Below, piece by piece: positions 33,469 through 53,677 of a stretch of 64,000 bases of DNA. Both the position numbers and the translations under genes were made by a program. The notes beneath the pieces were generated by a model. That model did no database searches. It was given only the letters and a program-made list of their open reading frames with translations, and was not told the origin of the DNA. Numbering within the stretch: the stretch's first letter is position 1; every line of letters begins with the position of its first letter. The DNA is from Bacteroides graminisolvens DSM 19988 = JCM 15093 (lineage in GTDB: Bacteria; Bacteroidota; Bacteroidia; Bacteroidales; Bacteroidaceae): assembly GCF_000428125.1 (NCBI RefSeq), contig NZ_ATZI01000001.1:434001-498000 (forward strand), written 5' to 3'.

Positions 33469-33496
33469 TGAAATGAAAAATGCAATTTGATAACCT

Positions 33497-36247: not shown

Positions 36248-36285
36248 TTATCTCACATGAATATATAATCTTCAAATAATAACTT

Positions 36286-37812
36286 ATGAAATTGCTGAAT
36301 ACTAGTCTCGTGCTATGCGGTATGTTGATAGGATTGTTTTCTTGTCAGCATTCGGAACCGTATAAGTACGAATATTTATATAAAAATCTGCCTTTTGATA
36401 TGCCTCGTGTGAAGGAACCCGTTTTCGCTGCTAATGAGGTTAACTTGAAAGACTATGGAGCTATTGGAAATGGAGAACATCTCTGTACCGAGTCATTTGC
36501 CCAGGCTATTGATGCTTTGGTTGATAAAGGGGGTGGTAAATTGATTGTCCCTGCTGGAGTTTGGTTTACGGGTCCCATCATTCTTAAAAGCAATATTAAC
36601 CTGCATCTGGAGAAGGGAGCAGTTATTCTGTTCTCACCAGATGTCGATTTATACCCATTGGTTGAAACTTCTTTTGAAGGTTTGGATACTCGGCGTTGCC
36701 AATCACCTATATCGGGTAGGGCTTTAATGAACGTAGCTATTACCGGTCATGGAGCAATTGACGGAAATGGTCATTTTTGGCGTCCGTTGAAACGCGAAAA
36801 AGTAAATGAAAGTACTTGGAAAGAGACAATATCTAGAGGTGGTGTTTTTAAACGTCCTACTTATTGGTTTCCATATCCCGAGTCTTTGAAAGGTGATAGC
36901 ATTAGTGATATGAATGTTCCGCGTAATTTGAAAACAGAAGAGGAATGGCAGAGTATACGCCATTTCTTACGCCCTGTGATGTTAAGCCTTATTGATTGCA
37001 AAAATGTCTTGCTTGAGGGAGTGATATTTCAAAATTCTCCAGCTTGGAATCTACATCCATTGATGTGCGAGAACATAATAATTGATGATATACAAGTCCG
37101 TAACCCTAGTTATGCACAAAATGGAGACGGTTTAGATTTGGAATCGTGTAAGAATGTACTCATTATAAATTCGACTTTCGATGTGGGGGATGATGGTATT
37201 TGTATTAAAAGTGGGAAGGATGAAGATGGACGTAAGCGTGGGTGTCCCACGGAAAATGTTATTGTTGATGGTTGTACTGTTTTTAAAGGGCATGGAGGCT
37301 TTGTTGTAGGAAGTGAAATGAGTGGAGGTGTTCGTAATATATCAGTCGCTAATTGTCAGTTTCTTGGCACAGATGTGGGACTGCGGTTTAAAAGTAAACG
37401 AGGTCGTGGGGGAGTTGTAGAAAATATATGGGTTAAAAATGTTTCGATGATGGATATTGCTACCGAACCAGTTACATTTAATTTGTATTATGGCGGTCTT
37501 TCAGCAGTGGAGCTACTTGAAAGTGGAATAAAGCAACCCGATGAGGTTACGCCTATGTCTGTTGATGAAACTACACCGGTTTTTAAGAATATTTATATTG
37601 ATAACTTGGTGTGTTCAGGCGCGCGTAGAGCATTATTCTTTAATGGTATTCCTGAGATGCCTATAGATGGTATCACACTACAGAATATTGATATTACATC
37701 AACCTACGGAGCCGAATTTGTTTACAGCAAAAATATAACACTCAAGAATGTTAATATACATAATAAAAAGGGTGAGAAAATAACAAGTCGTTTCTGCGAT
37801 AAAATTCACTAA
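36286..37812 (+). CDS. GH28 polygalacturonase-family lipoprotein
   Basis: This 508-residue right-handed beta-helix enzyme belongs to GH28. A lipobox-like LFSC near residue 20 suggests lipid anchoring. The four family motifs are present: NGDGLDLESC (D281), GDDGICIKSG (D302-D303), GHGGFVVGSE (H336) and LRFKSKRGRGG (R367). GH28 includes endo- and exo-polygalacturonases and rhamnogalacturonan hydrolases; the GH105/GH106 neighbours favour rhamnogalacturonan-type pectin. A terminator follows 45 bases after the stop. Confidence 0.93.
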   Translation: MKLLNTSLVLCGMLIGLFSCQHSEPYKYEYLYKNLPFDMPRVKEPVFAANEVNLKDYGAIGNGEHLCTESFAQAIDALVDKGGGKLIVPAGVWFTGPIILKSNINLHLEKGAVILFSPDVDLYPLVETSFEGLDTRRCQSPISGRALMNVAITGHGAIDGNGHFWRPLKREKVNESTWKETISRGGVFKRPTYWFPYPESLKGDSISDMNVPRNLKTEEEWQSIRHFLRPVMLSLIDCKNVLLEGVIFQNSPAWNLHPLMCENIIIDDIQVRNPSYAQNGDGLDLESCKNVLIINSTFDVGDDGICIKSGKDEDGRKRGCPTENVIVDGCTVFKGHGGFVVGSEMSGGVRNISVANCQFLGTDVGLRFKSKRGRGGVVENIWVKNVSMMDIATEPVTFNLYYGGLSAVELLESGIKQPDEVTPMSVDETTPVFKNIYIDNLVCSGARRALFFNGIPEMPIDGITLQNIDITSTYGAEFVYSKNITLKNVNIHNKKGEKITSRFCDKIH

Positions 37813-38062: not shown

Positions 38063-39529
38063 ATGAAACAGTGTTTTTTTGCAGTTGACCTTGGAGCTAC
38101 GAGTGGACGCACCATATTGGGAGCTTTTACAGATAAAGGGTTCGAATTGGAAGAGGTTAATCGTTTTCCAAATCATTTGATTGAAGTTAGTGGTCATGTT
38201 TATTGGGATATAAATGCTTTGTATCAGCACATCATTGAAGGACTGAAAATCGCGGCTCAAAAGCAAATAGAAATCACTTCAATCGGTATTGATACTTGGG
38301 GGGTAGATTTTGTTTGTATTGGTAAAGATGGTCATATACTTCGTCAGCCTTATGCATACCGTGATCCCCATACTATCGGTGCTCCTGAAACCTATTTTAA
38401 TAGGATTTCAAGGACTAGGGTGTATGAACTTACGGGCATTCAAGTGATGAATTTTAACTCGTTATTTCAACTAGATACTCTACGCCGGAATAATGATAGT
38501 TCGTTGGAGTCTGCAGATAAAATCTTGTTTATCCCTGATGCTTTATCGTATATGTTGTCCGGTAAAATGGTAACTGAGTATACCATCGCATCTACAGCTC
38601 AGTTGGTGAATGCTCACACTCGTAAGTTAGAGCCAGAATTGCTGTCTTCTTTGGGCTTGACAGAAGATAATTTTGGCCGTTTCGTATACCCTGGAGAATT
38701 GATTGGAACCTTAACTGCTGAAGTACAAAAGTTAACTGGTCTCGGCGCTATTCCTGTGGTAGCTGTGGCTGGCCATGATACAGGTTCTGCTGTGGCTGCA
38801 GTCCCAGCATTGACTAAGAATTTTGCTTATTTAAGCAGTGGAACTTGGTCACTTATGGGAATTGAAATAGATAAGCCTGTTATTAACGCACAAACTGAAT
38901 TATTTAACTTTACAAATGAAGGTGGTGTTGAGGGTACTATTCGTTTGCTTAAAAACATTTGTGGTATGTGGCTGCTTGAGCGCTGCAGAAGCGAGTGGGA
39001 GGAAACATCTTACCCTGAATTAATTTCTGAAGCACAGAAATCGGAGGCTTTCCGGAGCATTATTAATCCAGATGATGCACTGTTTAGTAATCCTTCAAAC
39101 ATGGAAAGTGCAATCTGCGAGTATTGTGCTTTAACCAATCAGCCAATTCCAGATACTCGTGCGCGTGTTGTACGCTGTATTTTTGAAAGTCTTGCATTGC
39201 GCTATCGACATGTTCTCGACTCACTGATAGCTCTTTCTCCCCGTCCGATAGAAGTACTTCACGTGATTGGTGGTGGAAGTCGTAATGACTTATTGAATCA
39301 ATTTACAGCAAATTCTACCGGCATTACAGTTGTCGCAGGCCCGTCGGAGGCTACGGCAATCGGGAATATAATGGTTCAGGCAATGGCAGCCGAAAAGTCA
39401 TCCGGCATGGATGAAATGAGAAAATTAATAAATTCATCGATTCCTTTGACAATATTTGCCCCTCAGGATACAGAAGAATGGAATTGCGCATATAAGAGGT
39501 TTTTGCAGATTATTGATCTAAAAAAATAG
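38063..39529 (+). CDS. rhaB: L-rhamnulokinase
   Basis: This 488-residue FGGY-family kinase phosphorylates L-rhamnulose at C1. The N-terminal ATPase motif FFAVDLGATSGRTILG, IGIDTWGVDF, AVAGHDTGSAVAAVP, YLSSGTWSLMG and HVIGGGSRNDLLNQ are diagnostic of RhaB. It is the first gene of the rhamnose operon (called rhaK in B. thetaiotaomicron) and is followed after 27 bases by the isomerase. Confidence 0.96.
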   Translation: MKQCFFAVDLGATSGRTILGAFTDKGFELEEVNRFPNHLIEVSGHVYWDINALYQHIIEGLKIAAQKQIEITSIGIDTWGVDFVCIGKDGHILRQPYAYRDPHTIGAPETYFNRISRTRVYELTGIQVMNFNSLFQLDTLRRNNDSSLESADKILFIPDALSYMLSGKMVTEYTIASTAQLVNAHTRKLEPELLSSLGLTEDNFGRFVYPGELIGTLTAEVQKLTGLGAIPVVAVAGHDTGSAVAAVPALTKNFAYLSSGTWSLMGIEIDKPVINAQTELFNFTNEGGVEGTIRLLKNICGMWLLERCRSEWEETSYPELISEAQKSEAFRSIINPDDALFSNPSNMESAICEYCALTNQPIPDTRARVVRCIFESLALRYRHVLDSLIALSPRPIEVLHVIGGGSRNDLLNQFTANSTGITVVAGPSEATAIGNIMVQAMAAEKSSGMDEMRKLINSSIPLTIFAPQDTEEWNCAYKRFLQIIDLKK

Positions 39530-39556
39530 TTTATTTACATAAAAAGAATTTGTGTT

Positions 39557-40810
39557 ATGAAAGAAGAATTAGTAAAGAAAGCCTATGATATAGCTCTTGA
39601 ACGCTATGCTGCTGTAGGTGTAGATGCCAATGAGGCTATTGAAAAATTACAAAAGATTTCGTTGTCACTTCATTGCTGGCAAGCTGATGATGTTACAGGT
39701 TTTGAAAACCCTGATGGACAGTTGTCTGGCGGAATCCAAGCTACAGGTAATCATCCGGGTAAAGCAAGGAATATAGAGGAGCTACGTCAAGACATATTGA
39801 AGGCTGCAAGCTATATTCCTGGAACTCACCGTTTGAATTTGCATGCAACATATGGCGATTTCGGAGGAAAGTTTGTTGATCGCGACGAAATTGAACCGAA
39901 GCATTTCCAAAGTTGGATGGAGTGGGCTAAGGAGAATGGAATGAAACTTGATTTTAACTCTACTTCTTTTTCTCACCCCAAAAGTGGAAGTCTTACCTTA
40001 GGCAATCCTGATAATGACATACGCAATTTCTGGATTGAGCATACCAAACGTAGTCGTGCTATAGCAGAAGCGATGGGGCAGTTTCAAGGAGATCCTTGTA
40101 TTATGAATCTTTGGATTCATGACGGAAGTAAGGATCAAACCGTAAATCGTTTACGCTATCGCGAACTTTTAAAACAATCGTTAGATGAAATTTTTGCGAC
40201 TAAATATGATAATATGAAAGACTGTATCGAAGCCAAATTATTTGGTATCGGAGCAGAAAGCTACACCGTTGGCTCATATGATTTCTATTTAGGTTATGGT
40301 TCAAAGAATAACAAGATGGTAACGCTTGATACAGGCCATTTCCATCTGACAGAAAGCATTGCGGATAAAATTTCTTCGCTGCTGCTTTTCACTCCTGAAA
40401 TCATGTTGCATGTGAGTCGTCCAATTCGTTGGGATAGTGACCACGTAACAATCATGAACGATGATACATTGGACTTGGCAAAAGAAATTGTACGTTGTGG
40501 TGCTTTAGATAAAGTACACATCGGACTTGATTACTTTGACGCAAGTATCAACCGTATTGGTGCATACGTAGTTGGTAGTCGTGCTACGCAAAAATGTTTC
40601 TTGCAGGGACTACTTGAACCGATTGCTAAATTGCGTGAATATGAAGCAAACGATCAGTTGTTTGAGCGTCTGGCACTTCTTGAAGAATCAAAGACTTTAC
40701 CTTGGAATGCTGTTTGGGATATGTTCTGTTTGAAAAATAATGTTCCGGTTGGGGAAACATTTATTTCTGAGATACAGAAATACGAACAAGAAGTTACTTC
40801 AAAAAGATAA
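39557..40810 (+). CDS. rhaA: L-rhamnose isomerase
   Basis: This 417-residue TIM-barrel metalloenzyme converts L-rhamnose to L-rhamnulose. The segments LHCWQADDV, NLHATYGDF, LDFNSTSFSHP, WIHDGSKD, LDTGHFHLTE and HVSRPIRWDSDHV hold the usual metal-binding Glu/Asp/His residues. The length matches the family. It is the second gene of the operon (rhaI in the Bacteroides naming). Confidence 0.97.
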   Translation: MKEELVKKAYDIALERYAAVGVDANEAIEKLQKISLSLHCWQADDVTGFENPDGQLSGGIQATGNHPGKARNIEELRQDILKAASYIPGTHRLNLHATYGDFGGKFVDRDEIEPKHFQSWMEWAKENGMKLDFNSTSFSHPKSGSLTLGNPDNDIRNFWIEHTKRSRAIAEAMGQFQGDPCIMNLWIHDGSKDQTVNRLRYRELLKQSLDEIFATKYDNMKDCIEAKLFGIGAESYTVGSYDFYLGYGSKNNKMVTLDTGHFHLTESIADKISSLLLFTPEIMLHVSRPIRWDSDHVTIMNDDTLDLAKEIVRCGALDKVHIGLDYFDASINRIGAYVVGSRATQKCFLQGLLEPIAKLREYEANDQLFERLALLEESKTLPWNAVWDMFCLKNNVPVGETFISEIQKYEQEVTSKR

Positions 40811-40844
40811 ATTGACGAGCGTTATTTAAACAACAATACATATC

Positions 40845-41876
40845 ATGAACACACTTATCGGACTTTTTATTATTGCTATAGGCAGTTTTGGGCAAAGCAG
40901 TTCCTATGTTCCTATTAATAAAGTGAAACAATGGAGTTGGGAAAACTTTTGGCTAGTACAAGGAGTATTCGCTTGGTTAGTTTTTCCTTTCTTAGGAGCA
41001 CTATTAGGAGTTCCCGCCGGAAGTGATTTGTTCCAATTGTGGGCTTCAGGTGGAGCCTTGCCATCTATTATTTATGGTGTACTATGGGGAGTCGGAGGAT
41101 TGACTTTTGGACTTAGTATGCGTTATTTAGGTGTGGCATTGGGACAAAGTATTGCATTGGGTACTTGTGCCGGGTTCGGTACCTTATTTCCTGCCATATT
41201 TTCTGGAAAAGATCTGTTTCAAGGTGAAGGATTGATGCTATTAATTGGTGTCTGTATTACCTTGGCCGGTATAGCAATCATAGGTTATGCAGGAAGTCTG
41301 CGTTCCAAGAACATGACTGAAGAGGAAAGAAAAGCTGCTGTTAAAGATTTTGCTTTAACTAAAGGCTTGCTTGTGGCGCTTCTTGCAGGCGTAATGAGTG
41401 CATGTTTCGCTTTAGGACTTGAAGCTGGAACCCCTATTAAAGAAGCTGCCATATCTGCAGGAGTAGAAGGACTATATGCAGGTTTGCCTGTTATTTTTCT
41501 AGTCACGTTTGGTGGTTTTATGACCAATGCAGCATATTGTTTGCAACAGAACATTAAGAATAAAACAGGTAAAGAATACTTTAGTGTGAGTCGTTCAACA
41601 TGGATTAATAATGTATTGTTCTGTGCTTTGGCGGGTGGTCTTTGGTATTCTCAGTTTTTTGGATTGGAAATGGGTAAAAGCTTTCTTGAAGAAAGTCCGG
41701 TTTTACTCGCTTTTTCATGGAGTATTTTGATGTCTCTCAATGTTACATTTAGTAACGTATGGGGTATGATATTAAAAGAATGGAAGGGCGCTAACAAATT
41801 CACGATTATGGTCTTACTTTCCGGTTTGGTGGTATTGGTCTCTTCTATTATTGTTGTGGCAATGGCGCAAGCTTAA
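40845..41876 (+). CDS. rhaT: L-rhamnose permease, RhaT family
   Basis: This 343-residue inner-membrane protein has about ten hydrophobic segments, beginning with a helix-forming N-terminus (LIGLFIIAIGSFGQSSSYVPI). WLVFPFLGALLGVP, GVLWGVGGLTFGLSMRYLG and the final LSGLVVLVSSIIVVAMA fit the RhaT sugar-proton symporter family (length near 344 in E. coli). It is the operon's rhamnose importer (rhaP in the Bacteroides naming), 34 bases after the isomerase. Confidence 0.94.
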   Translation: MNTLIGLFIIAIGSFGQSSSYVPINKVKQWSWENFWLVQGVFAWLVFPFLGALLGVPAGSDLFQLWASGGALPSIIYGVLWGVGGLTFGLSMRYLGVALGQSIALGTCAGFGTLFPAIFSGKDLFQGEGLMLLIGVCITLAGIAIIGYAGSLRSKNMTEEERKAAVKDFALTKGLLVALLAGVMSACFALGLEAGTPIKEAAISAGVEGLYAGLPVIFLVTFGGFMTNAAYCLQQNIKNKTGKEYFSVSRSTWINNVLFCALAGGLWYSQFFGLEMGKSFLEESPVLLAFSWSILMSLNVTFSNVWGMILKEWKGANKFTIMVLLSGLVVLVSSIIVVAMAQA

Positions 41877-41892
41877 AAAATACAGATTTATT

Positions 41893-42702
41893 ATGAAATC
41901 AATTTTAGATAATCGTCCTGAACTGGCAAGACAGGTTGCTAATGTAGCTGAGGTTGCCGGATATCTGTGGCAAAAAGGATGGGCTGAACGCAATGGTGGA
42001 AATATCACCATCAACGTTACAGAATTTGTAGATGATGAAATCAAAGGAATGGAACCTATTAGTGATATTATGCAGATAGGAACTACTTTGCCGCATCTCA
42101 AAGGCTGCTATTTCTTTTGCAAAGGCACTAATAAAAGAATGCGTGACTTGGCCAGATGGCCAATGGAAAACGGTTCTGTTATACGTATTAATGATGACTG
42201 TGCAAGTTATGTAATCATAGCGGACAATCCGGTGAAACCGACTTCAGAGTTGGCATCTCATTTGTCTATGCATAATTATCTTATTGGAAGTGGTTCTACT
42301 TATAAAGCGGCTGTTCATACTCACCCGATTGATTTAGTTGCAATGACTCACAATCCGGCCTTCCTCAAGAAAGATGTATTGACAAAACTTCTTTGGAGTA
42401 TGATTCCTGAAACAAGAGCTTTCTGCCCCCGAGGTTTAGGTATCATTCCCTACGCTCTGCCAAGTTCAGTTGAATTAGCAGAAGCTACAGTTAAGGAATT
42501 GGCAGAGTATGACGTTGTTATGTGGGAGAAACATGGTGTTTGCGCTGTTGGTGAAAATGTCATGGAGGCTTTTGACATGATTGATACGCTTTCAAAATCC
42601 GCTCAAATCTACCTGACTGCAAAATCTATGGGTTTTGAACCCGATGGAATGTCTGAAGCTTTAATGGAAGAGCTTAAAGTAGCCTTTAATTTGCCCAAAT
42701 AA
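41893..42702 (+). CDS. rhaD: L-rhamnulose-1-phosphate aldolase
   Basis: This 269-residue class II (zinc) aldolase splits rhamnulose-1-phosphate into dihydroxyacetone phosphate and L-lactaldehyde. The zinc-binding HTH pair is in AAVHTHPIDL (H142, H144), with a third His in WEKHGVCAVG and the substrate-binding GGNITINV near the start. The frame extends to 41851, overlapping the permease gene, but homology starts at MKSILDNRPE, so ATG 41893 is used. The gene is called rhaA in B. thetaiotaomicron. A terminator follows, and the usual rhaO oxidoreductase is missing. Confidence 0.96.
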   Translation: MKSILDNRPELARQVANVAEVAGYLWQKGWAERNGGNITINVTEFVDDEIKGMEPISDIMQIGTTLPHLKGCYFFCKGTNKRMRDLARWPMENGSVIRINDDCASYVIIADNPVKPTSELASHLSMHNYLIGSGSTYKAAVHTHPIDLVAMTHNPAFLKKDVLTKLLWSMIPETRAFCPRGLGIIPYALPSSVELAEATVKELAEYDVVMWEKHGVCAVGENVMEAFDMIDTLSKSAQIYLTAKSMGFEPDGMSEALMEELKVAFNLPK

Positions 42703-42730: not shown

Positions 42731-42762
42731 AATAAGTGTGCTGTACATATGGCACACTTATT
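42731..42762 (+). terminator. Terminator of the rhamnose operon
   Basis: AATAAGTGTGC and GCACACTTATT form a perfect 11-base-pair stem with a 10-base loop, followed by ATTTCT. It starts 28 bases after the aldolase stop and lies just before the second GH105 gene, so that gene is either expressed by read-through or from its own start. Confidence 0.75.
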
Positions 42763-42805
42763 ATTTCTACGAATCTACATTGTTAAGTTTAAAAATCTGA
42801 TAATT

Positions 42806-44110
42806 ATGAAAGTCAATAAATGCTTGTTCCTTAGCATATTTCCTCTTTTACACCTGTCGCTTAGTGCCCAGACTAATATGTCTCCAAAAGAAGTGGCCAT
42901 GAAGATAGCCGATCGTATATTAAATACTACTACTTATGACTTTAAAAACGTCAAAACAGGTGAAGAATACAATTCGGTGAAGGGTATTCCCGTTAATCAA
43001 GATGTGAAAGTGGTGTCAAAATACACACAGTGGCATTATACAAATGGGGTGACTAACATGGCTCTGATGGAATTAGGGAATAAACTGGGCGACCTTAAGT
43101 ATGAAAAGTATGTACTTAAAAATATGAATTTTGTTTTTAATGAAGGAAATCTTGAATTCTTCCGTAAGCAATATGATCAGGCATTTAAAGATGGAGGATG
43201 GGAAGCCATACGCAAATTAAGTTGGCACATGATTTTTCGTGCTAAACGTCTAGATGATAATGGTCCGATGGGAGCTAGTTTGATTGAATTACAGTTGAAA
43301 TACCCTCATAAATCATTCTTGAACTATATAAATGAAACAGCCAGCCATTTGAATTACGCTGAACCGCGTTTGGTAGATGGTACAATCGCTCGCATTTGGC
43401 CTCACGAGAATACTATATGGGCAGATGATGCCTTCATGGCGATCTCTTTTCTTTCTAGAATGGGCAAATTGACTGCTGACAGTAAATATTATGACGATGC
43501 TGCCAATCAAGTTCTTAATTATACTCGTTATCTGTGGTGTCCGGAGAAAAGCATTTATTATCATTGTTATCATACAGACAATAAGGAACATGGAGTTGCT
43601 CACTGGAGCAGAGCAAATGGTTGGGTTTTTATGGCGCAAGCGGATTTGTTGGCTGTGTTACCCAAAGAGCATCCTCTACGCGAAGAGTTGCTTCGGAACT
43701 TTCGTCAACAGGCAAGTGGTGTAGCTCGGTATCAAGGGAAAAATGGTTTGTGGCATCAATTATTGGATAAAGAAGATTCTTATGAAGAGATAACCGGCAC
43801 GGCCATGTTTGTTTTTGGAATAGCCAAGGGGGTTAAAGAAGGTTGGTTACATCCAGACTTTATTTATGTTGCAGAACAAGGCCTTAAAGGAATGATGCGC
43901 CTCATCTCTGATCAGGGCGATGTAAAAGGTATATGTGTTGGTACGGGCATCATGCCTTCATTGGCATATTATTATAATCGTCCGGTGCAAGAAAATGATC
44001 CAATGGGAGAGGGACCGGTATTACGTGCTCTTGTTGAAATGATTGATGCGCCTAAATACAGTGAAATCAAAGCCGAAGAGCAATATGATAAAATTGTTAT
44101 GAAAAAATGA
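42806..44110 (+). CDS. GH105-type unsaturated glucuronyl/rhamnogalacturonyl hydrolase
   Basis: This 434-residue secreted (alpha/alpha)6-barrel protein has a signal peptide ending near LSAQ. WADDAFMAISFLSRMG (D207/D208) holds the expected catalytic Asp, and HWSRANGWVFMAQADLL and GLWHQLLDKEDSYEE are family landmarks. Homology and the signal peptide start at ATG 42806; the longer frame (42749) begins inside the terminator stem. It takes the place where B. thetaiotaomicron has rhaO. Its divergence from the other GH105 gene suggests a different substrate or linkage. Confidence 0.88.
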   Translation: MKVNKCLFLSIFPLLHLSLSAQTNMSPKEVAMKIADRILNTTTYDFKNVKTGEEYNSVKGIPVNQDVKVVSKYTQWHYTNGVTNMALMELGNKLGDLKYEKYVLKNMNFVFNEGNLEFFRKQYDQAFKDGGWEAIRKLSWHMIFRAKRLDDNGPMGASLIELQLKYPHKSFLNYINETASHLNYAEPRLVDGTIARIWPHENTIWADDAFMAISFLSRMGKLTADSKYYDDAANQVLNYTRYLWCPEKSIYYHCYHTDNKEHGVAHWSRANGWVFMAQADLLAVLPKEHPLREELLRNFRQQASGVARYQGKNGLWHQLLDKEDSYEEITGTAMFVFGIAKGVKEGWLHPDFIYVAEQGLKGMMRLISDQGDVKGICVGTGIMPSLAYYYNRPVQENDPMGEGPVLRALVEMIDAPKYSEIKAEEQYDKIVMKK

Positions 44111-44262
44111 TGTTATTTGCATAGCGATGCGAGAAAATACTTTGTATTTGCAAGGTTATATATGAAGTGTTTTCTCGTTTCTCTACCATACTCTTGCTTT
44201 TTATCGATTTAAAAGAAGATGTTTTTTTTATTGTAATATACTAGTTTATAGGATTTAATGTT

Positions 44263-44270
44263 TATTTTTG
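44263..44270 (+). promoter_or_regulatory. -7 box of rhaR
   Basis: TATTTTTG matches TAnnTTTG and lies 28 bases before the regulator's ATG. No -33 TTTG is found at the right spacing. Confidence 0.4.
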
Positions 44271-44298
44271 CTCCTTAGACCAATGTGACTTTTCGGAT

Positions 44299-45207
44299 AT
44301 GACTAAGAGTTTTAATGATTTAGGAGTAGAATTCAAGTACCTTATTGTAAATGACAAAGATCACCAGTTTGGTCTTTGGGTAAACACGGTCGGCTATCAA
44401 GCAATACAACCCAACTCTCCTTATCCCCTCAAGGATCACCCCTCTGGATATTTTTTTAATGCATCGAAAGGCCGTATCCTGCCTGAATATCAAATTGTTT
44501 ATATAACCAAAGGGCGCGGATTATTTGCTTCTGACTCCACTCCCGAGCGGCAAGTCTGTAAGGGAAGGCTGATGATTCTGTTTCCAGATCAGTGGCATAC
44601 CTATCATCCTCTTCAACAGACAGGTTGGAACGAATATTATATCGGTTTCGAAGGGACAATCATTGATAACATAATTAAAAACTCATTCATTACCCGTGAA
44701 AATCAAGTCTTGGAGGTCGGTCTTAATGAAGAATTAGTTTCTCTATTTACCCGAGCAATAGAAATTGCAGAATCTGATAAGATCTCGGCACAGCAGTATC
44801 TTTCGGGAATTGTACTTCACATGATTGGTTTAATTCTTTCTATCTCCAAAAATAAGATATTTGAGATGGGAGATGTTGATCAAAAAATAGAGCAGGCTAA
44901 AATTATAATGAACGAAAACGTTTTTAAAAACATTGATCCTGAGGAACTAGCTATGCGACTTAATATAAGCTATTCATGGTTTCGAAAAGTTTTTAAGGAC
45001 TATACAGGCTACGCTCCGGCCAAATATTTTCAAGAATTGAAGCTTCGAAAGGCCAAGCAGTTACTTGCCGGCACATCTCAATCAGTGAAAGAAATTTCTT
45101 TCATGCTTGATTATAAATCGACAGAACACTTCTTCTCTCTTTTCAAGAAACGTACCGGTTTTACTCCTCTAGAATACCGTACGTATGCAAGAGGTGGTGA
45201 AGAATAA
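44299..45207 (+). CDS. rhaR: AraC-family regulator of rhamnose genes
   Basis: This 302-residue AraC-type activator has an N-terminal cupin-like sensor domain (about 30-150, IVYITKGRGLF and LFPDQWHTYHP) and a C-terminal double helix-turn-helix (about 200-300, LAMRLNISYSWFRKVFKDYT and EISFMLDYKSTEHFFSLFKK). Position directly downstream of the rhamnose genes matches RhaR of B. thetaiotaomicron, which controls that operon. By extension it may also control the adjoining GH105/GH106/GH28 and GH2 genes, which is an inference. Confidence 0.88.
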   Translation: MTKSFNDLGVEFKYLIVNDKDHQFGLWVNTVGYQAIQPNSPYPLKDHPSGYFFNASKGRILPEYQIVYITKGRGLFASDSTPERQVCKGRLMILFPDQWHTYHPLQQTGWNEYYIGFEGTIIDNIIKNSFITRENQVLEVGLNEELVSLFTRAIEIAESDKISAQQYLSGIVLHMIGLILSISKNKIFEMGDVDQKIEQAKIIMNENVFKNIDPEELAMRLNISYSWFRKVFKDYTGYAPAKYFQELKLRKAKQLLAGTSQSVKEISFMLDYKSTEHFFSLFKKRTGFTPLEYRTYARGGEE

Positions 45208-45327: not shown

Positions 45328-47706
45328 ATGAAATTTGTAAGCGCATGCTTTCTTCTTTTCTTTTCACTCTGTGTGTACGCTCAAAAGACAGAGACACTCT
45401 ATTTATCAGGTAAAGGTCTAGGTAATACAATTACATGGAATTTTTTCTGCTCTAATGGTCACAAAAGCGGTAAATGGAGTAAGATTGAGGTCCCTTCTCA
45501 ATGGGAACTTCAAGGGTTTGGTGAATATACTTATGGTAGATGGTACAAGACAAAAGGTGCTGTGCCAAGTATGGAAACAGGTTTATATCGTTATTCTTTT
45601 AAGGTTCCTGCAGCATGGAAGGGCAAAATTATCCGCATTTATTTTGATGGAGTGATGACCGACACAGATGTGAAGATCAATGGAATGTCTGCCGGAGATA
45701 CGCATCAAGGAGGGTTTTACCGTTTCTCATACGATATAACAGATAAAATAAAATATGGTGCAAAAAATCAATTGGAGGTTTTTGTTCGCAAGCACTCTCT
45801 AAATAAAAGCGTCAATGCTGCAGAGCGAATGGCTGACTGGTGGACTTTCGGAGGTATTTATCGTCCGGTGTGGCTCGAAGCGAAACCAACCTCACACATT
45901 CAGCACGTTGCTGTTGATGCTTCTTCGCAGGGAATTCTTTCAGCCAAAATACAATTTAATAACCTGAAGAAAGGATGCCATCTCGTTGCTTTAATTGCTC
46001 CTGTAGGGACTGACAGAGGTACCTTTCTTCCACAATCCATATCTCTGCAAGACACTGTTTCTGTGCAGCGAATATCGGTGAATTGGAAGGGGGTTAAAAC
46101 ATGGACTCCGGAGACTCCTAATCTTTATCTGATGACACTGAGCTTACTTAATGAAAAAGGCGAAATGATACATACTTATCAGGAACGCATTGGTTTCAGA
46201 ACGGTAGAGTTCAAACCTAAAGACGGTCTTTATGTGAATGGCACGAAAGTGACCATGAAAGGTATTAACCGACATTCTTTTCATCCCGATGGCGGAAGGA
46301 CTACAAACAGGGAAATAAGTTTGCAGGATGCACTTCTCATAAAAGAAATGAATATGAATGCGGTTCGTTTTCATTATCCTCCCGATACTCATTTTTTAGA
46401 GATGTGCGATTCGTTAGGATTGTTTGTCATCGACGAACTGGCTGGTTGGCAGAATTCCTATGATACTTCTACCGGACTTAAATTGCAGCGTGAGATGTTG
46501 CTTCGTGACGTAAATCATCCTTCCATTGTTTTATGGAGTAATGGTAACGAGGGAGGTTGGAACAATGCTCTAGATCAGCATTTTGCTGATTATGATATAC
46601 AAAAAAGACACGTCATACACCCTTGGGCTGATTTCAACCAACTTGATACGCACCACTATCCGGCCTATTTAACAGGTGTGGCTCGTTTTACTAACGGGTA
46701 TAATGTATTTATGCCAACCGAATTCATGCATGGTCAATATGATCAGGGACACGGAGCCGGTTTGCAAGATTTTTGGGACAACTATACTCGTCATCCATTG
46801 TTTGCAGGCGGTTTCATGTGGGATTTTTGCGATAATGCAGTGAAGCGTGCTGACAAAGGGGGAATACTTGACTCTGAAACTTTTAATGCACCAGATGGAA
46901 TTCTGGGACCCTATCGTGAGAAAGAGGGAAGCTATTATACTGTACGCGAGGTATGGTCGCCTATCCAAATCAAGAAACAATACATAACATCTTCATTCAA
47001 AGGTGAATTCATGTTGAGCAACAACTATTTGTTTACGAACTTAAGTCAGTGTACTATGAAGTATCAAATATATGCGGCTCCGTCTCCTTTAAAAGGGGGG
47101 CAACAATCTTTGCTTGCATCTGGAGAGGTTGTATTACCTTCGCTTCATCCGGGTGAGACCGGACGTGCTGTGATGCAAGTTCCTGAAAATTTCTTCGAAG
47201 GAGATGTTCTTCAACTAGAGGCATTTGATGCTACAGGCAAAAGCATTTGTAACTGGACGTGGCCCATACATTATGCGGCTGATTATTTTCAGAAGCAGCG
47301 TGCCCTAATTTCTTCTGATGAAACGGCTCTTTTAACTGAATCAGACTCCACGGTCACTTTGTCTGCTAAGCATGTAACTGTTACATTTACAAAGCAAGAT
47401 GGGAAGATTATCAGCGTGTTGAACTCTTTAAATAAACAAGTCCCTTTCAAAGAAGGACCGGTTGCTGTTGGAATGAAAATGAAGCCAATACGTTCAACTT
47501 GCAGGATGGATGGTACCGATGCGGTGTTTTGTGTCAATTATGTAGGCGGTGTTGACTCCATCGTGTGGCGTATGTCGGCCGACGGCCTCCTTAATATGAA
47601 TGCGGTACTGCTTAATCGTGCCTCTGGGGGAGGTGGTTTCGATGATGCGTTTATGGATGAGCAAGTCTATAATTTGGGATTGACCTTCTCATATCCGGAA
47701 AAGTAG
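45328..47706 (+). CDS. GH2 beta-galactosidase, interrupted by in-frame TAG
   Basis: This 792-residue stretch codes for a secreted GH2 enzyme: signal peptide (ending VYAQ), sugar-binding domain (VPSQWELQGFG), Ig-like domain and TIM barrel. The acid/base Glu is in NGNEGGWN (E408) and a likely nucleophile in PTEFMHG (E465). The start of a large Bgal_small_N domain follows. It stops at TAG 47704-47706, but the same frame continues without a break through family-conserved sequence (CTGMRWFGRGPYRVW). The complete gene would be 944 codons up to 48162. Either this is a recent nonsense mutation (or base-calling error), or the protein is made in two parts. Confidence 0.85.
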   Translation: MKFVSACFLLFFSLCVYAQKTETLYLSGKGLGNTITWNFFCSNGHKSGKWSKIEVPSQWELQGFGEYTYGRWYKTKGAVPSMETGLYRYSFKVPAAWKGKIIRIYFDGVMTDTDVKINGMSAGDTHQGGFYRFSYDITDKIKYGAKNQLEVFVRKHSLNKSVNAAERMADWWTFGGIYRPVWLEAKPTSHIQHVAVDASSQGILSAKIQFNNLKKGCHLVALIAPVGTDRGTFLPQSISLQDTVSVQRISVNWKGVKTWTPETPNLYLMTLSLLNEKGEMIHTYQERIGFRTVEFKPKDGLYVNGTKVTMKGINRHSFHPDGGRTTNREISLQDALLIKEMNMNAVRFHYPPDTHFLEMCDSLGLFVIDELAGWQNSYDTSTGLKLQREMLLRDVNHPSIVLWSNGNEGGWNNALDQHFADYDIQKRHVIHPWADFNQLDTHHYPAYLTGVARFTNGYNVFMPTEFMHGQYDQGHGAGLQDFWDNYTRHPLFAGGFMWDFCDNAVKRADKGGILDSETFNAPDGILGPYREKEGSYYTVREVWSPIQIKKQYITSSFKGEFMLSNNYLFTNLSQCTMKYQIYAAPSPLKGGQQSLLASGEVVLPSLHPGETGRAVMQVPENFFEGDVLQLEAFDATGKSICNWTWPIHYAADYFQKQRALISSDETALLTESDSTVTLSAKHVTVTFTKQDGKIISVLNSLNKQVPFKEGPVAVGMKMKPIRSTCRMDGTDAVFCVNYVGGVDSIVWRMSADGLLNMNAVLLNRASGGGGFDDAFMDEQVYNLGLTFSYPEK

Positions 47707-47715
47707 TGTACGGGC

Positions 47716-48162
47716 ATGCGTTGGTTTGGCCGAGGCCCTTACAGAGTTTGGAAGAATCGTGTTCCGGGAACGAATTATGGAATATGGCATAAGGATTACA
47801 ACAATACAATTACCGGTGAATCCTTTGAAAATCTCGTCTATCCCGAGTTTAAAGGCTATCATGCTAATTTATATTGGGCGACTATAGAGAATAAAGAAAC
47901 TCCTTTTACTGTTTATTCGGCTAGCGATGGAGTTTTCCTCCGCCTTTTTACACCGGAAGAGCCTAAAGGCAGACAAGATGGTGTGAATACCATGCCCGAC
48001 TTCCCAGCCGGCGATATTTCTTTTTTGTTTGATATTCCTGCCATACGTTCCTTTAAGCCGGTTTCTCAGCATGGGCCTCAGAGCCAGCCCGGAAATATCC
48101 GTATTAAGAAAGGAGACGAAGGCATACGTTTGAACTTATACTTTGATTTTAGAAATAAATAA
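47716..48162 (+). pseudogene. C-terminal Bgal_small_N fragment of the interrupted GH2 gene
   Basis: These 148 residues are in the same frame as the upstream GH2 gene and separated from it only by TAG and three codons. GRGPYRVWKNR, YPEFKGYHANLYWA and the closing LNLYFDFRNK are the normal C-terminus of large GH2 beta-galactosidases (Bgal_small_N/domain 5). The ATG at 47716 is an internal Met with no start signal, so independent translation is doubtful. Confidence 0.8.
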
Positions 48163-48178
48163 TTCGAATGATAATACC

Positions 48179-50287
48179 ATGAAAAAACTATTTTATTCAT
48201 TGGCTGCTCTGATCCTCGGAGCATGTGGTGCGGGCAAGCAATCTCCTATTGACAGAGAGGCCCTTGTTACAAGGAATAATCCTCAGGTTAGTTCCTTTGA
48301 TTCTTTGGCTTCACTTTCTGTTGGCAACGGAGAGTTTGCCTATACAGTTGATGCAACTGGGTTACAAACTTTTCCGGCCATGTATTCCAATGGCGTGCCC
48401 CTTGGAACTCAAAGTCAGTGGGGATGGCATGCATTCGCCAACCCTGAAGGATATCGTCACGAAGAAACTCTTAAGAATTATGATTTCGGTCGTGGGCGCT
48501 TGGAACCCTATTCTACTCAATTTAATGAAAAAGGTCGTCAGCAAGATGCAGCCAATTGGTTTCGAGTAAACCCACATCGTCTGCATTTGGGTATTGTTGG
48601 CTTAGAACTATCAGAGAGAGTAACCCCGACTGATTTTACAGATATTCACCAGACACTGGATATGTGGAAAGGGGTTATTCACAGTAGTTACAAGATAGCA
48701 GGTGTTCCCTATGAAGTAGAGACAGCCGTTCATCCTAAGGCAGACCTGATTGCTGCGCGTATCACTAGTACCGGGCATTCGGGTGTTAAGTTTCACTTCC
48801 CTTATCCTACCGGAGGCCATTGTGATGATGCCTGTTTATGGAATGTGAATGATAAACATTCAACGACAATCATCGCTCAAGATGCACAATCGGCCGTATT
48901 GAAACGAGTTTTGGATGCTACCACCTATTACGTGACTATCCGTTGGGAAGGCAATGCAACTATAAAAGAGAAGGAAAAGAACTATTTCGTTTTGACTCCT
49001 CAAGGTGATTCTTTGGCCTTTACTTGCGAGTTTACTTCTGACGCTCCATCTAAGGAGAAAGTAAATGTGGACCAAACCCTGTCTGCCGCTGCTGAATATT
49101 GGGTTTCCTTCTGGAAAAAAGGAGGTGCGGTTGACTTCTCATTGTGCACAGATTCCCGTGCCAAAGAACTGGAACGTCGCGTGGTACTTAGCCAGTATCT
49201 ATTGGCTATCCAGTGCGCAGGGACCACCCCGCCGCAGGAAACAGGGCTGACTTACAATTCGTGGTTTGGCAAGTTCCATTTAGAAATGATTTGGTGGCAT
49301 CAGGCACAGTTTGCGCTTTGGAACCGAGCTGACTTGCTTGACCGTACTCTCGGATGGTATGAAAAGGCTGAACCCATAGCCCGTGAAATAGCAAGACGCC
49401 AAGGGTTTCAAGGAGTTCGATGGATGAAGATGACTGATCCCGGAGCATTGGAAGCGCCATCAAAGGTAGGAAGCTTTCTTATCTGGCAGCAACCTCACCT
49501 TATTTATTTGGCCGAACTGATTTATCGTGCCAACCCCAGTGAAGAAGTGATTAAGAAATACAATCGTTTGGTGCAGGAAACAGCTAAGTTCATGTATTCT
49601 TTTGCCACGTACGATGAGTTGGAAGGTCGCTTTGTGCTTAAAGGAGCTATCCCGGCTCAAGAAACATTGCGTGCGGCCGAGACAGTGAACCCTCCTTTTG
49701 AACTTTCTTATTGGCATTTTGCCATGGAAACGGCACAAAAATGGCGCGAACGTTCCGGAGAAAAGCGTAACCTGCAGTGGGATGAGATGATTGATAAACT
49801 CTCTCCTTTGGCTTACAATGAAGATAAGTTATACTTGGCAGCTGAAACAGCTGTCGATACCTATAAAGATATCCGTTTTACTTCAGACCACATGGCGGTG
49901 CTTGGCTCTGTCGGTGTTTTGCCCATGTGCAAATTGATTCGGGAAGACTATATGAAGAATACGCTTCATTGGATTTGGGATAATTGGAACTGGGGTAAAA
50001 CTTGGGGATGGGATTATCCTATGACCGCAATGAACGCCGCTCGTTTAGGAGAACCTGAAAAAGCAGTGGGAGCCTTACTGATGGAGAAACGAACAAATAC
50101 GTATTTGGTAAACGGACATAATTACCAGGACGGGCGTCTCAGAGTTTATCTACCCGGCAATGGCGGTCTGCTTACGGCTGTGGCTATGATGTGTGCAGGT
50201 TGGGACGGTTGCAAAGAGCAGACCCCCGGTTTCCCGAAAGACGGAAAGTGGAACGTGCGATGGGAAGGCCTTAATCCCATGCCTTAA
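48179..50287 (+). CDS. Six-hairpin glycosidase-like lipoprotein, unassigned family
   Basis: This 702-residue lipoprotein has a lipobox LGAC near residue 14. A beta-sandwich N-terminal half (about 25-310; LASLSVGNGEFAYTVDATGL) is joined to an (alpha/alpha)6 barrel (about 320-700). The barrel includes WFGKFHLEMIWWHQAQFALW and WNWGKTWGWDYPMTAMNAAR, aromatic- and acid-rich segments as in clan GH-L type enzymes such as GH65 and GH15. Family and substrate are not identified. It follows the interrupted GH2 after 16 bases and precedes the next barrel protein by 21, so the three were one operon. The upstream frame to 48143 overlaps the GH2 remnant and is not used. Confidence 0.7.
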   Translation: MKKLFYSLAALILGACGAGKQSPIDREALVTRNNPQVSSFDSLASLSVGNGEFAYTVDATGLQTFPAMYSNGVPLGTQSQWGWHAFANPEGYRHEETLKNYDFGRGRLEPYSTQFNEKGRQQDAANWFRVNPHRLHLGIVGLELSERVTPTDFTDIHQTLDMWKGVIHSSYKIAGVPYEVETAVHPKADLIAARITSTGHSGVKFHFPYPTGGHCDDACLWNVNDKHSTTIIAQDAQSAVLKRVLDATTYYVTIRWEGNATIKEKEKNYFVLTPQGDSLAFTCEFTSDAPSKEKVNVDQTLSAAAEYWVSFWKKGGAVDFSLCTDSRAKELERRVVLSQYLLAIQCAGTTPPQETGLTYNSWFGKFHLEMIWWHQAQFALWNRADLLDRTLGWYEKAEPIAREIARRQGFQGVRWMKMTDPGALEAPSKVGSFLIWQQPHLIYLAELIYRANPSEEVIKKYNRLVQETAKFMYSFATYDELEGRFVLKGAIPAQETLRAAETVNPPFELSYWHFAMETAQKWRERSGEKRNLQWDEMIDKLSPLAYNEDKLYLAAETAVDTYKDIRFTSDHMAVLGSVGVLPMCKLIREDYMKNTLHWIWDNWNWGKTWGWDYPMTAMNAARLGEPEKAVGALLMEKRTNTYLVNGHNYQDGRLRVYLPGNGGLLTAVAMMCAGWDGCKEQTPGFPKDGKWNVRWEGLNPMP

Positions 50288-50308
50288 TTCTTTTGTTTGG
50301 AAACTATT

Positions 50309-53300
50309 ATGAGAAAAAGAAAGATTACTGCGCTTTGTACCCTTTTCATTCTGTTGTGTATTCTTTCCAGTGAAGCATTGGGCCAGCCTCTTGCTTCATT
50401 GAACGAAGGAAAACATACGTCTGCCCGAAAGTTGCGTTACCATCCGGATGGGGAAGACTTTGTAATCGTTAATGGCGATCGCAAGTTTAACCGTGCCTTA
50501 TATGGCAGTCATTCCGGTTTCCGCCTGGAGACAAGTGATGTGCCTGAATTCGCATTGTATTTACCCCGCATGGGAGGAAATCTGACTTTAGGACTGCGAT
50601 TGAAAAACCGTGTTCTGTCACTCAATCATGCATCGCGTATTGAATCTCGTTATCGGGCGGGAAGTCGTATATATAAGATAACCGATCCGATATTGGGTAA
50701 AAACGGTGTTCTTGTCATTACTGCGCTGGCATTACCCGATACCGATGGAGCTATCTGGAAAATTGAGAGTAAGAATATTCCTTCGGGTATTGAGTTGACT
50801 TGGTTATTTGGAGGTGCGGCCGACAAACGTTTCAGTCGGGAAGGCGATATGGGAGTAGATCCTGCTGATTGTTTCGACTTGAAGCCCGAATATTGTTCGG
50901 GCAATGTATATGCCATCAAAAACAATCAGTTCCAAGTTACTTTCGGACAAAAATCCAAAACGGGTGCTCGTGTACTGAGTGGGTTATTCCCTTCCGGATC
51001 CAAGCTTACCACCGATGAATTACCTCGTTTACACGGAAGTGTGCTACTCCAAAAAGAACAGTACTTTCTGTTGCATTCCGGAGAACCGTCCGATTCTCCC
51101 GTGATTCTTTCCGCTTTGTTTGATAAAGCAGAAAGGACTCGTCGTACCTTGGCCGAGCGCATTCGTATTTCAACTCCTGATCCTTATTTTAATACCTTGG
51201 GAGGCGCGTTAAGCGTTGCGGCCGACGGTATATGGGATGGTGAAGTCTGGTTACACGGAGCCATAGGCTGGCGCATGCCTTTGAGCGGTTGGCGCGCAGC
51301 TTACACAGGCGATGTTCTGGGCTGGCACGACCGGGCACGAAAGCATTTTGATGCGTATGCGGCGAGTCAGGTCACCCATAAACCACAGGTTAAACAGCAT
51401 CCCGCGCAAGATCCAGAGATGAATCTGGCCCGTTCCATCAAAGAGTGGGGTACACCGCAGTATAGTAACGGATACATTTGCCGGAACCCAAACCGCAATG
51501 ATCAGATGCATCACTACGACATGAACTTATGTTATACAGATGAATTGCTGTGGCATTTCAATTGGACGGGCGATTTGGCTTATGCTCGCAAGATGTGGCC
51601 CGTTTTGGTTCGTCATCTTGACTGGGAGAAACGCAATTTCGATCCCGATAACGATGGATTGTATGATGCTTACGCTTGTATATGGGCCAGTGACGCACTC
51701 TATTATAATTCGGGTGCAGTAACACATTCGTCGGCCTACAACTATCGAGCGAATAAGATGGCTGCCGAGATAGCCCGGCTCATTGGCGAAGACCCGTCAC
51801 CTTATGCTTCGGAGGCTGCCCAAATACTCAAGGCCATGAACGAACAACTTTGGATACCATCCAAAGGACATTGGGCAGAATACAAAGACTTCATGGGGCA
51901 TAAACGGGTGCATGAAAGTGCAGCGGTCTGGACTGTTTATCATGCTATTGATAGTGAAACGGCCGATCCTTTTCAGGCGTATCAGGCTACTCGGTATGTA
52001 GATACAGCTATTCCCCATATTCCCGTCCGTGCCGAAGGGCTTAAAGATGAGCAGTTCGAAACGATCTCTACTACGAATTGGTTGCCTTATTCATGGAGTA
52101 TCAATAATGTGGCATTTGCCGAAGTGATGCACACCTCGTTGGCTTATTGGCAGGCCGGACGCAATGATGAGGCTTTTAAACTTCTTAAAAGCTCCGTTCT
52201 CGATGGTATGTACTTGGGAGGAAGCCCGGGTAATTTTGGTCAGGTTAGCTTTTATGATGCGGCACGCGGTGAGTGTTACCGAGATTTCGGCGATCCCATA
52301 GGAGTTGCCTCACGTGCTTTGATTCAAGGACTTTACGGCATTGTTCCCGACTTGTTGAATAACCGTTTGCTGCTTCGCCCGGGATTCCCGGTTGAATGGC
52401 CTTACGCTTCGCTCGAAACGCCTGACATTTCATTTGTTTACCAACAAGAAGGCCCAAGTGACGTGTACCGGGTGTCCACCCGCTTTGATAAACCGTTAAC
52501 CATTGAGTTGCAATGTCGTGCCCGTATGGATCGTGTGGTAACTGTTACGGTGAATGGCAAAAAAACTCAGTGGAAACAAAATGAAACGTCCGTTGGCTAT
52601 CCTTGCTTGCTTATTGAAATTCCTTCGGCTAAAACCGCGGAAATAAAAATTGAATGGGCAGGTCGTCCTGTTGAGGCCGGTTTGTTGCAAACGGGCAAGG
52701 CATACAAAAAAGGTGACGTAGCCAAAATCTCCTTCCAATCATTGACTATGGAGGAACTATATGATCCTCAAAACGTTTTCTTGAAAACTCGTATTCCCAT
52801 CAATCCCAAAGAGTTTGTGGCAGTGGTTACCGGTGCTCCCGGAGGGCGAACAGCCTTTGCACGCGTGCGGCAAGGTGATCTGTCTTGGTGGTTACCCATA
52901 GAAATACAAGTGGAGGAGGAGAGTAAAGACGCTGCGGCAGCCTTCTCGAAGGTAGTGTCTGCACATTGCCGACCGGTCAACATGGATAGTTTGTGGAACG
53001 CACCGGTTACTGCCATTTTTAAGAATGAATATTTAACTCCCCGCTCTCCGTATACAACATTGCAATTGCCCAAACAAGGAATAGGTGAGTGGTGTCATCC
53101 TAAAACTACAGCGGTGATAGACGATTCGGGACTTCGGAAGAAAGTGCGAAACCAGTTGTTTGCTACACCGTTCGGGGTCAACTTCCGAACACCGTCGGAG
53201 GGAAACAACATTGCATTTACTTCTTTGTGGGATAATTATCCCGATAGCATTCGGGTGCCGCTTACGGGTAGTGCATCGCATGCTTACTTATTAATGGCGG

Positions 53301-53677
53301 GCAGTACCAATCACATGCAATGCCACATCGTTAACGGAATTGTAAAGGTACATTATACAGATGGCAGTTGCGATTCTTTGGAATTGATTAATCCGGAAAA
53401 CTGGTGTCCTATTGAGCAAGACTTTTTCGTTGATAACGTTGCTTTCAGTATCAAGGCGCCACGCCCTTATCGGGTGCATTTGCTTTCGGGGTTGGTAAGC
53501 AACAACCTAGAGAAGGATTTGACTATTAAAGGCGTGTATGGTCGTGAAATTCCCGGTGGAGCAGGCGTATTGCTCGATATGCCCTTGAATCCCAAGAAAA
53601 CATTAAGTCATCTTACTTTGGAAACCCTCTCAAACGATGTGGTGATAGGCTTAATGAGTATAACGCTGCAGCAGTAG
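50309..53677 (+). CDS. DUF4450-like large (alpha/alpha)6-barrel protein
   Basis: This 1122-residue protein has a signal peptide (ending SSEALGQ). The N-terminal region (about 35-290; YHPDGEDFVIVNGDRKFNRA, EFALYLPRMGGN) resembles proteins annotated DUF4450. The central barrel (about 300-720) carries the calcium-loop-like DPDNDGLYDAY and WASDALYYNSGAVTHSSAYNY, as in GH78/GH63-type glycosidases. The C-terminal part (about 860-1122) looks like a beta-sandwich. The frame extends to 50297 but begins with TTG; ATG 50309 is chosen. Probably a glycosidase acting with the GH2; activity unproven. The gene is more GC-rich than the 5' half of the window. Confidence 0.7.
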   Translation: MRKRKITALCTLFILLCILSSEALGQPLASLNEGKHTSARKLRYHPDGEDFVIVNGDRKFNRALYGSHSGFRLETSDVPEFALYLPRMGGNLTLGLRLKNRVLSLNHASRIESRYRAGSRIYKITDPILGKNGVLVITALALPDTDGAIWKIESKNIPSGIELTWLFGGAADKRFSREGDMGVDPADCFDLKPEYCSGNVYAIKNNQFQVTFGQKSKTGARVLSGLFPSGSKLTTDELPRLHGSVLLQKEQYFLLHSGEPSDSPVILSALFDKAERTRRTLAERIRISTPDPYFNTLGGALSVAADGIWDGEVWLHGAIGWRMPLSGWRAAYTGDVLGWHDRARKHFDAYAASQVTHKPQVKQHPAQDPEMNLARSIKEWGTPQYSNGYICRNPNRNDQMHHYDMNLCYTDELLWHFNWTGDLAYARKMWPVLVRHLDWEKRNFDPDNDGLYDAYACIWASDALYYNSGAVTHSSAYNYRANKMAAEIARLIGEDPSPYASEAAQILKAMNEQLWIPSKGHWAEYKDFMGHKRVHESAAVWTVYHAIDSETADPFQAYQATRYVDTAIPHIPVRAEGLKDEQFETISTTNWLPYSWSINNVAFAEVMHTSLAYWQAGRNDEAFKLLKSSVLDGMYLGGSPGNFGQVSFYDAARGECYRDFGDPIGVASRALIQGLYGIVPDLLNNRLLLRPGFPVEWPYASLETPDISFVYQQEGPSDVYRVSTRFDKPLTIELQCRARMDRVVTVTVNGKKTQWKQNETSVGYPCLLIEIPSAKTAEIKIEWAGRPVEAGLLQTGKAYKKGDVAKISFQSLTMEELYDPQNVFLKTRIPINPKEFVAVVTGAPGGRTAFARVRQGDLSWWLPIEIQVEEESKDAAAAFSKVVSAHCRPVNMDSLWNAPVTAIFKNEYLTPRSPYTTLQLPKQGIGEWCHPKTTAVIDDSGLRKKVRNQLFATPFGVNFRTPSEGNNIAFTSLWDNYPDSIRVPLTGSASHAYLLMAGSTNHMQCHIVNGIVKVHYTDGSCDSLELINPENWCPIEQDFFVDNVAFSIKAPRPYRVHLLSGLVSNNLEKDLTIKGVYGREIPGGAGVLLDMPLNPKKTLSHLTLETLSNDVVIGLMSITLQQ

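Follow-up and report, generated by a model that had tools for sequence, protein, structure and literature searches.

A conserved pair of proteins with predicted (alpha/alpha)6 folds, P1 and a DUF4450 protein, in pectin-type loci of Bacteroides graminisolvens and its relatives

The stretch of DNA considered here, which we call the window, comprises 64,000 nt of Bacteroides graminisolvens DSM 19988 = JCM 15093 (NZ_ATZI01000001.1, positions 434,001–498,000). Two large open reading frames (ORFs) follow one another on its + strand, at the place given by an original prediction made from the sequence alone. The first, P1 (48179..50287; ATG at 48179, TAA ending at 50287), encodes a lipoprotein-like protein of 702 residues with an N-terminal beta-sandwich and an (alpha/alpha)6 toroid, a whole-protein fold of the type found in glycoside hydrolase families GH65, GH95 and GH139. 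The second, P2 (50309..53677; ATG at 50309), encodes a DUF4450 protein of 1122 residues, which besides its (alpha/alpha)6 barrel has an additional region at the C-terminus. The two genes are separated by 21 nt. Read by eye, the N-terminus of P1 (MKKLFYSLAALILGAC) has a lipobox, with no obvious surface-export motif, and that of P2 has a signal peptide.

The prediction that the longer protein is DUF4450-like held well above the cut-off, with PF14614 matching P2 residues 85–244 (50561..51040, + strand) at an E-value (E) of 2.4e-40 and 138.7 bits against a cut-off of 27. Other Pfam matches were borderline. P1 scored 25.9 bits against the N-terminal domain PF14498 (GH65N_2; cut-off 27.7), and 28.8 bits, above the cut-off, when searched with its neighbours; P2 scored 25 bits against PF22422 (MGH1-like; cut-off 27), and 28.2 bits, above the cut-off, in another Pfam search. 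Neither protein had an NCBIfam match at E up to 1, no significant match came from searches of PDB sequences with P1 and P2 singly and as profiles (best E 0.039), and the Pfam GH78 model (Bac_rhamnosid6H) did not match P2 at E up to 1.

P1 and P2 are a conserved pair. A scan of genome contigs with six peptide patterns yielded 262 P1 relatives, of which the best 80 loci, with 64–85% identity, were kept. A P2 relative was present in 58 of these 80 loci and, except in L011, L027 and L074, started no more than 520 nt past the end of P1 (55 loci); five of the 22 loci without P2 (L034, L046, L052, L063, L066) extend for less than 5 kb after P1. Among 60 genomes of the genus, P1 was found in 26 and P2 in 27 before exclusions. 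Before pairs were counted, P1 was set as absent in G166 (fragments) and P2 in G191, G195 (weak) and G197 (short DUF4450 protein only), while G203, with its broken P1, was kept. Both genes then occurred in 22 genomes, P1 only in three, P2 only in two and neither in 33 (Fisher p 4e-11, ignoring kinship and including incomplete genomes). A sample of 148 genomes from the phylum contained DUF4450 in six, the window's genome included, and all of the other five carry P1 on the same contig, 2.9–15.4 kb from the DUF4450 match. Of 395 genomes from the phylum, 29 yielded a P1 match with E of 1e-5 or less, including one fragment and one GH65-type protein, and P2 is present along with P1 in 8 of 19 stretches from more distant genomes. 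These counts supply the co-occurrence analysis that the original prediction had proposed for the pair. B. thetaiotaomicron was not named among the best 80 of the 262 P1 loci, no search having been aimed at that species.

Some departures from the standard arrangement were also seen. In G203 (G203:C143:120035-122177) P1 is split in two, an in-frame TGA lying in one of the parts, and P2 still adjoins it. In five loci without P2 (L030, L034, L041, L051, L052), the genes that come after P1 are one of fasciclin type (c23, median 731 aa) and one of SusC type (c10). The genome of the window also encodes a stand-alone DUF4450 protein (G000:C1:99647-100171, in an open frame of about 248 aa; L002, L088), and similar short proteins recur in the genus, so DUF4450 occurs without the barrel.

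AlphaFold2 models were built on alignments assembled from the window and the loci, with 55 sequences for P1 and 45 for P2, and reached a predicted local distance difference test score (pLDDT) of 86.5 and 88.4 respectively. Together with their Foldseek and VIA-align matches, these models bear out the six-hairpin barrels that had been predicted for both proteins. For the P1 model, Foldseek returned GH95 structures over nearly the full length (best E about 1e-21), and the N-terminal beta-sandwich and (alpha/alpha)6 fold of GH95 are both present. In VIA-align, the best match was the GH65 structure 7fe3 (Z 31.2 over 579 residues, root mean square deviation (rmsd) 3.2), with GH95 8zbv at Z 25.8 and GH139 9hmb at Z 24.9. 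For profile comparisons we used alignments made from genome hits (25 PF14498 hits for GH95, 20 sequences for GH65 and nine for GH65 hydrolases), each E-value being that of a single comparison. The P1 profile matched GH95 with E 4.9e-10 over 584 columns and the GH65 hydrolases with E 4.9e-9 over 472 columns, and the broader GH65 set with E 1.8e-5 only.

P1 can be compared with three families. GH95 (alpha-L-fucosidase/alpha-L-galactosidase; AfcA 2EAC, BACOVA_03438 4UFC) has the whole-protein fold in common with P1, at 13–15% identity in structural alignments. The GH65 hydrolases (FjGH65A 7FE3 and human PGGHG) resemble it in the best structural Z, in the aligned acid Glu described below and in a C-terminal TGAGG/PGNGG loop, at 12% identity to 7FE3. 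The fold of GH139 (BT0984, an enzyme that acts as a 2-O-methyl-fucosidase on rhamnogalacturonan II (RG-II)) is likewise common with P1 (9HMB at Z 24.9, 9HYQ at Z 23.6). A common fold does not show function.

Conservation was read from 55 P1 sequences of at least 65% identity and from 27 divergent ones, down to 36% identity; the divergent set leaves out L240, which looks GH65-type (16% identity), and L239, a fragment. Eight residues, E354, H367, E369, E495, E508, D612, H647 and P659, are invariant across the 27 divergent sequences, and R653 and D651 vary among them. The 55-sequence set has no variation at these positions, which says little at such identity. Glu495 (49661..49663, + strand) is the putative general acid. 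In the profile alignment to the GH65 hydrolases it stands, ungapped, opposite the acid Glu of their ‘DE’ motif, and it is conserved in 55/55 and 27/27 sequences; the most divergent P1 (L241) has the acid motif VSEN there, near the SPEN of GH95.

The base is a different matter. The GH95 motif N-x-N-x-(E/Q)-M, whose Asn421 and Asn423 are assigned the roles of acid helper and base in PMC12282258, reads K-F-H-L-E-M in P1, so that, ungapped, K365 and H367 take the place of the Asn pair: Lys365-Phe366-His367 (49271..49279, + strand) directly precede the LEM that aligns with the E-M of GH95. His367 is present in 27/27 divergent relatives, and position 365 is Lys in 24/27 and Arg in 3/27. The Asn motif occurs in only 18 of the 25 PF14498 hits, and is therefore not universal among them. 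Pro659 (50153..50155, + strand; conserved in 55/55 and 27/27) stands for GH95 Asp766, because the IDGN of GH95 lies opposite LPGN in the profile alignment. P1 also lacks the base Glu that the GH65 hydrolases have in their ‘ET’ motif (E616 in FjGH65A), with no Glu at residues 640–659; titles of structure matches to P1 name E574 mutants of PGGHG. Asp651 was considered as a catalytic base and rejected, being Asp in only 16/27 divergent sequences. At the level of sequence, then, P1 is without the GH95 Asp, the GH95 Asn-x-Asn and the GH65 base Glu.

We considered whether P1, having lost the known base systems, might be no hydrolase at all, with P2 as the active partner and P1 serving in binding, inactive, or an enzyme resembling a phosphorylase or a lyase, a view that overlaps the others discussed here. 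Pro659, the missing Asn-x-Asn and the missing GH65 base Glu would all fit it, and the titles of the structure matches show that the fold is common to phosphorylases. We nevertheless regard it as distinctly unlikely. The invariance of E354, E369, E495, D612, H367 and H647 in the 27 divergent sequences argues for an active site that has been kept, and the lipoprotein signal would make a phosphorylase unlikely. Moreover, this fold can change its base, as GH139 shows. In PMC12282258 an Asn base and an acid Glu are proposed for both GH95 and GH139, with the Asn activated by Asp766 in GH95 and otherwise in GH139. That paper describes GH139, which acts on a pectic polysaccharide, as having a −1 site that departs from GH95 while keeping the Asn base. 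Because GH139 activates its Asn base differently from GH95, the base system does change on this scaffold. P1 lacks the Asn-x-Asn at this place, and its comparison with GH139, whose residues are Gln411-Asn412 and Asp723/Asn729, is one of fold.

The top Foldseek matches to the P2 model were GH94 phosphorylases (E 2e-22). VIA-align gave its best score to Aspergillus niger Rha-2, 8iwf (Z 29.9 over 430 residues, rmsd 2.9; model residues 48–781), with GH94 8bou at Z 25.0. Both 8IWF and AoRhaA 8HMM belong to GH78. P2 resembles these alpha-L-rhamnosidases in its best Z and has both the (alpha/alpha)6 barrel and the C-terminal beta-domain of GH78, residues past about 790 being barely covered. In single profile comparisons, P2 matched GH78 with E 3.2e-7 over 389 columns and MGH1-like proteins with E 9.8e-12 over 183 columns. 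From GH78 it differs in having no clear RERLGWTGD acid motif and in that it adds DUF4450 and about 330 C-terminal residues; from GH94 phosphorylases and MGH1-like proteins (PF22422) it differs by the signal peptide, as judged by eye, by DUF4450 and by the long C-terminus.

In GH78 the catalytic acid is the Glu of RERLGWTGD and the base the Glu of TTxWE. In our own reading of the profile alignment, D335 of P2 lies opposite the former and D650 opposite the latter. The case for D335 as a GH78-type acid was weakened because two of the five distant relatives have Asn in its place. Five acidic residues, D462, D650, E655, D659 and D662, are invariant in 45 sequences. Asp462 (51692..51694, + strand; in WASDAL) is a candidate general acid, and the stretch from Asp650 to Glu655 (52256..52273, + strand; DAARGE) a candidate general base region, each of these three residues being conserved in 45/45 sequences and in all five distant relatives. 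The original prediction had singled out the loop DPDNDGLYDAY as glycosidase-like. This motif is indeed present at P2 445–455, and its second half is well kept (LYDAY in four of the five distant relatives and LFDAY in one); its DPDNDG half is lost in L086, one of the five, and was dropped as a catalytic motif. From these comparisons we infer that D462 would be the acid of P2 and E655 or D650 its base, with E495 as a catalyst in P1.

The genes upstream in the window suggest what the pair might act on. A block at 32218..37812 (+ strand) encodes pectin-type and rhamnogalacturonan I (RG-I)-type enzymes, namely a GH88/105-type protein (PF07470), a GH106 and a GH28, assigned by Pfam and, for GH106, by NCBIfam. 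It is followed by L-rhamnose catabolism genes (FGGY kinase, RhaA, RhaT and class II aldolase; 38063..42702, + strand, Pfam) and by a second GH88/105-type enzyme with an AraC-type regulator (42749..45207, + strand, Pfam). The GH106 scored 1553.9 bits against the NCBIfam equivalog AlphaRhamBT4145 (cut-off 1300), and the window thus holds the combination of a BT4145-type GH106 with GH28 and GH88/105-type genes by which we recognized an RG-I utilization locus. BT4145 is the RG-I-specific GH106, and BT4156 is among the RG-I galactosidases, according to a review (PMC8002723). No PL11 or PL9 was found among the window proteins scanned, a subset of its ORFs. Elsewhere in the window, behind three GH43 genes, a 676-aa ORF at 16584–18614 had no match in Pfam (E up to 0.001), PHROGs or PDB sequences.

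Directly upstream of P1 lies a GH2 gene of BT4156 type (45328..48162, + strand), as had been predicted, although not as one intact reading frame. Its two pieces, 45328–47706 and 47716–48162, share one frame and are separated by a single in-frame TAG at 47704–47706. The NCBIfam model for the BT4156 exo-beta-1,4-galactosidase matches them at positions 6–798 (1345 bits) and 803–946 (295 bits), against a whole-protein cut-off of 1700. The stop leaves the triose-phosphate isomerase (TIM) barrel in a piece of 792 aa and the C-terminus in one of 148 aa, which has its own ATG three codons past the stop. The reading frame of the GH2 relative in L074 is open at this site. The TAG of the window may be a nonsense mutation of recent origin or an error of the assembly, or the enzyme may be tolerated in two parts.

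The original prediction saw P1 and P2 as partners of this galactosidase, acting on galactosylated side chains or on small plant glycosides. Its position here fits that view, as does a GH2 relative whose end is no more than about 2 kb ahead of P1 in L004, L007, L009, L011, L012, L016 and L017. We consider the partnership improbable, however, because a GH2 relative occurs within the fetched stretch in only 9/80 P1 loci (5/45 with full flanks) and because a stop interrupts the gene here. Absence of the pair's co-occurrence with this GH2 elsewhere had been named beforehand as grounds for giving up the idea, and 9/80 loci go part of the way to that outcome. A fixed operon of P1 with GH2 was dropped on the same count, and the GH2 gene is best regarded as an occasional neighbour outside the pair. 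We found no direct evidence for galactosylated side chains or for flavonoid or terpene glycosides as substrates, and the neighbours favour RG-I oligosaccharides instead.

That the pair lies near pectin genes was supported far beyond this genome. Counting GH28, GH105, GH88, GH106, PL1-like and PL11 as pectin-type, at least one such gene was present in 58/80 P1 loci and in 38/45 with full flanks; PL1-like genes were seen in 19/80. Of 25 genomes, 14 have a GH106 no more than 50 kb from P1, where 1.3 would be expected, and 10 have one no more than 20 kb away, where 0.55 would be expected, numbers that ignore kinship; in eight of the 25 the GH106 matches are on other contigs only. In the stretches from the 19 more distant genomes, where neighbours were labelled by best BLASTP match, a PL11 RG-I lyase was found in five and a GH28-like gene in eight. 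GDSL esterases, a sulfatase and a GH2 just below the BT4151 cut-off were further neighbours there. Together with the absence of NCBIfam matches and the borderline GH-type Pfam matches besides DUF4450, these loci uphold the original view of unassigned glycosidase-like proteins near pectin genes. The profile and structure searches that it had suggested returned glycosidase-type folds, and fell short of a firm GH family in Pfam.

The neighbours point to RG-I. GH88/GH105 and GH106 are not RG-I-specific, and a different target was weighed, namely another glycan that contains rhamnose and uronate (side chains of arabinogalactan-proteins, RG-II, a gum or an exopolysaccharide) whose genes share GH106, GH88/105 and GH28 with RG-I. 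Three of the 80 loci (L064, L070 and L059, in which one gene separates P1 from P2) read P1 P2 GH106 GH88 with no GH28, PL1 or PL11 cluster in the stretch, and the distant locus L242 has a sulfatase beside GH88, both as such a target might predict. We still think it unlikely, since a PL11 RG-I lyase lies near P1 in 4/80 and 5/19 loci and the GH106 of the window exceeds the cut-off for BT4145, which PMC8002723 describes as RG-I-specific.

Our preferred interpretation, which we hold to be probable, is that P1 and P2 are glycoside hydrolases with the (alpha/alpha)6 fold, exo-acting and probably inverting, which come from two families and work as a pair on RG-I oligosaccharides in the periplasm. 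Because the two families usually travel together, mostly beside pectin genes, they probably carry out a step of pectin digestion. In the periplasm they would act alongside the GH106, GH28 and GH105/GH88 enzymes on RG-I-derived oligosaccharides, from which the pair would most likely take off single sugars, and any freed rhamnose would enter the neighbouring rhamnose pathway. Several observations weigh against this proposal. The acid loop of P1 (residues 491–496) is modelled with pLDDT < 50. The profile alignment to GH95 puts the general acid of that family, Glu566, at A493, two columns from the invariant E495, and sets its Asn pair against a gap in P1, which is left with no clear catalytic base. 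P2 is absent from 11/45 P1 loci with full flanks. A pectin-type gene is lacking in 22/80 loci, some of them short contigs, and labelled pectin genes in 6/19 distant stretches (L247, L254, L258–L261), L247 having a GH78. PL11 and rhamnose genes occur in only 4/80 and 8/80 loci respectively, and all of the co-localization counts ignore shared ancestry.

More speculatively, P2 could be an alpha-L-rhamnosidase-like enzyme, given what it matches best in structure and the rhamnose genes nearby, and the Lys/His site of P1 could suit a charged sugar, a uronic acid, in the −1 subsite. A bolder version of the proposal, rather unlikely in our judgement, is that P1 founds a GH family in which the scaffold and acid of GH65/GH95 persist and the whole base system (Asn-Asn-Asp, or Glu) has been replaced by a cationic Lys/His site, releasing a uronic acid or other unusual sugar from RG-I, and that P2 is the founder of a DUF4450 family acting on the sugar that comes next in this chain.

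Descriptions of how gut bacteria break down pectin come mainly from a few Bacteroides strains. In the open-access literature, a scope outside which most subscription journals fall, we found no paper naming DUF4450 or PF14614 and recognized no RG-I enzyme family of the P1/P2 kind. A conserved P1/P2 pair in pectin/RG-I-type loci of many Bacteroidota suggests that there is a pectin linkage, or an RG-I route, outside the current scheme. If our interpretation is correct, P1 would add to the ways in which a single scaffold can provide an inverting glycosidase with its base, next to the Glu of GH65 and the Asn of GH95 and GH139.

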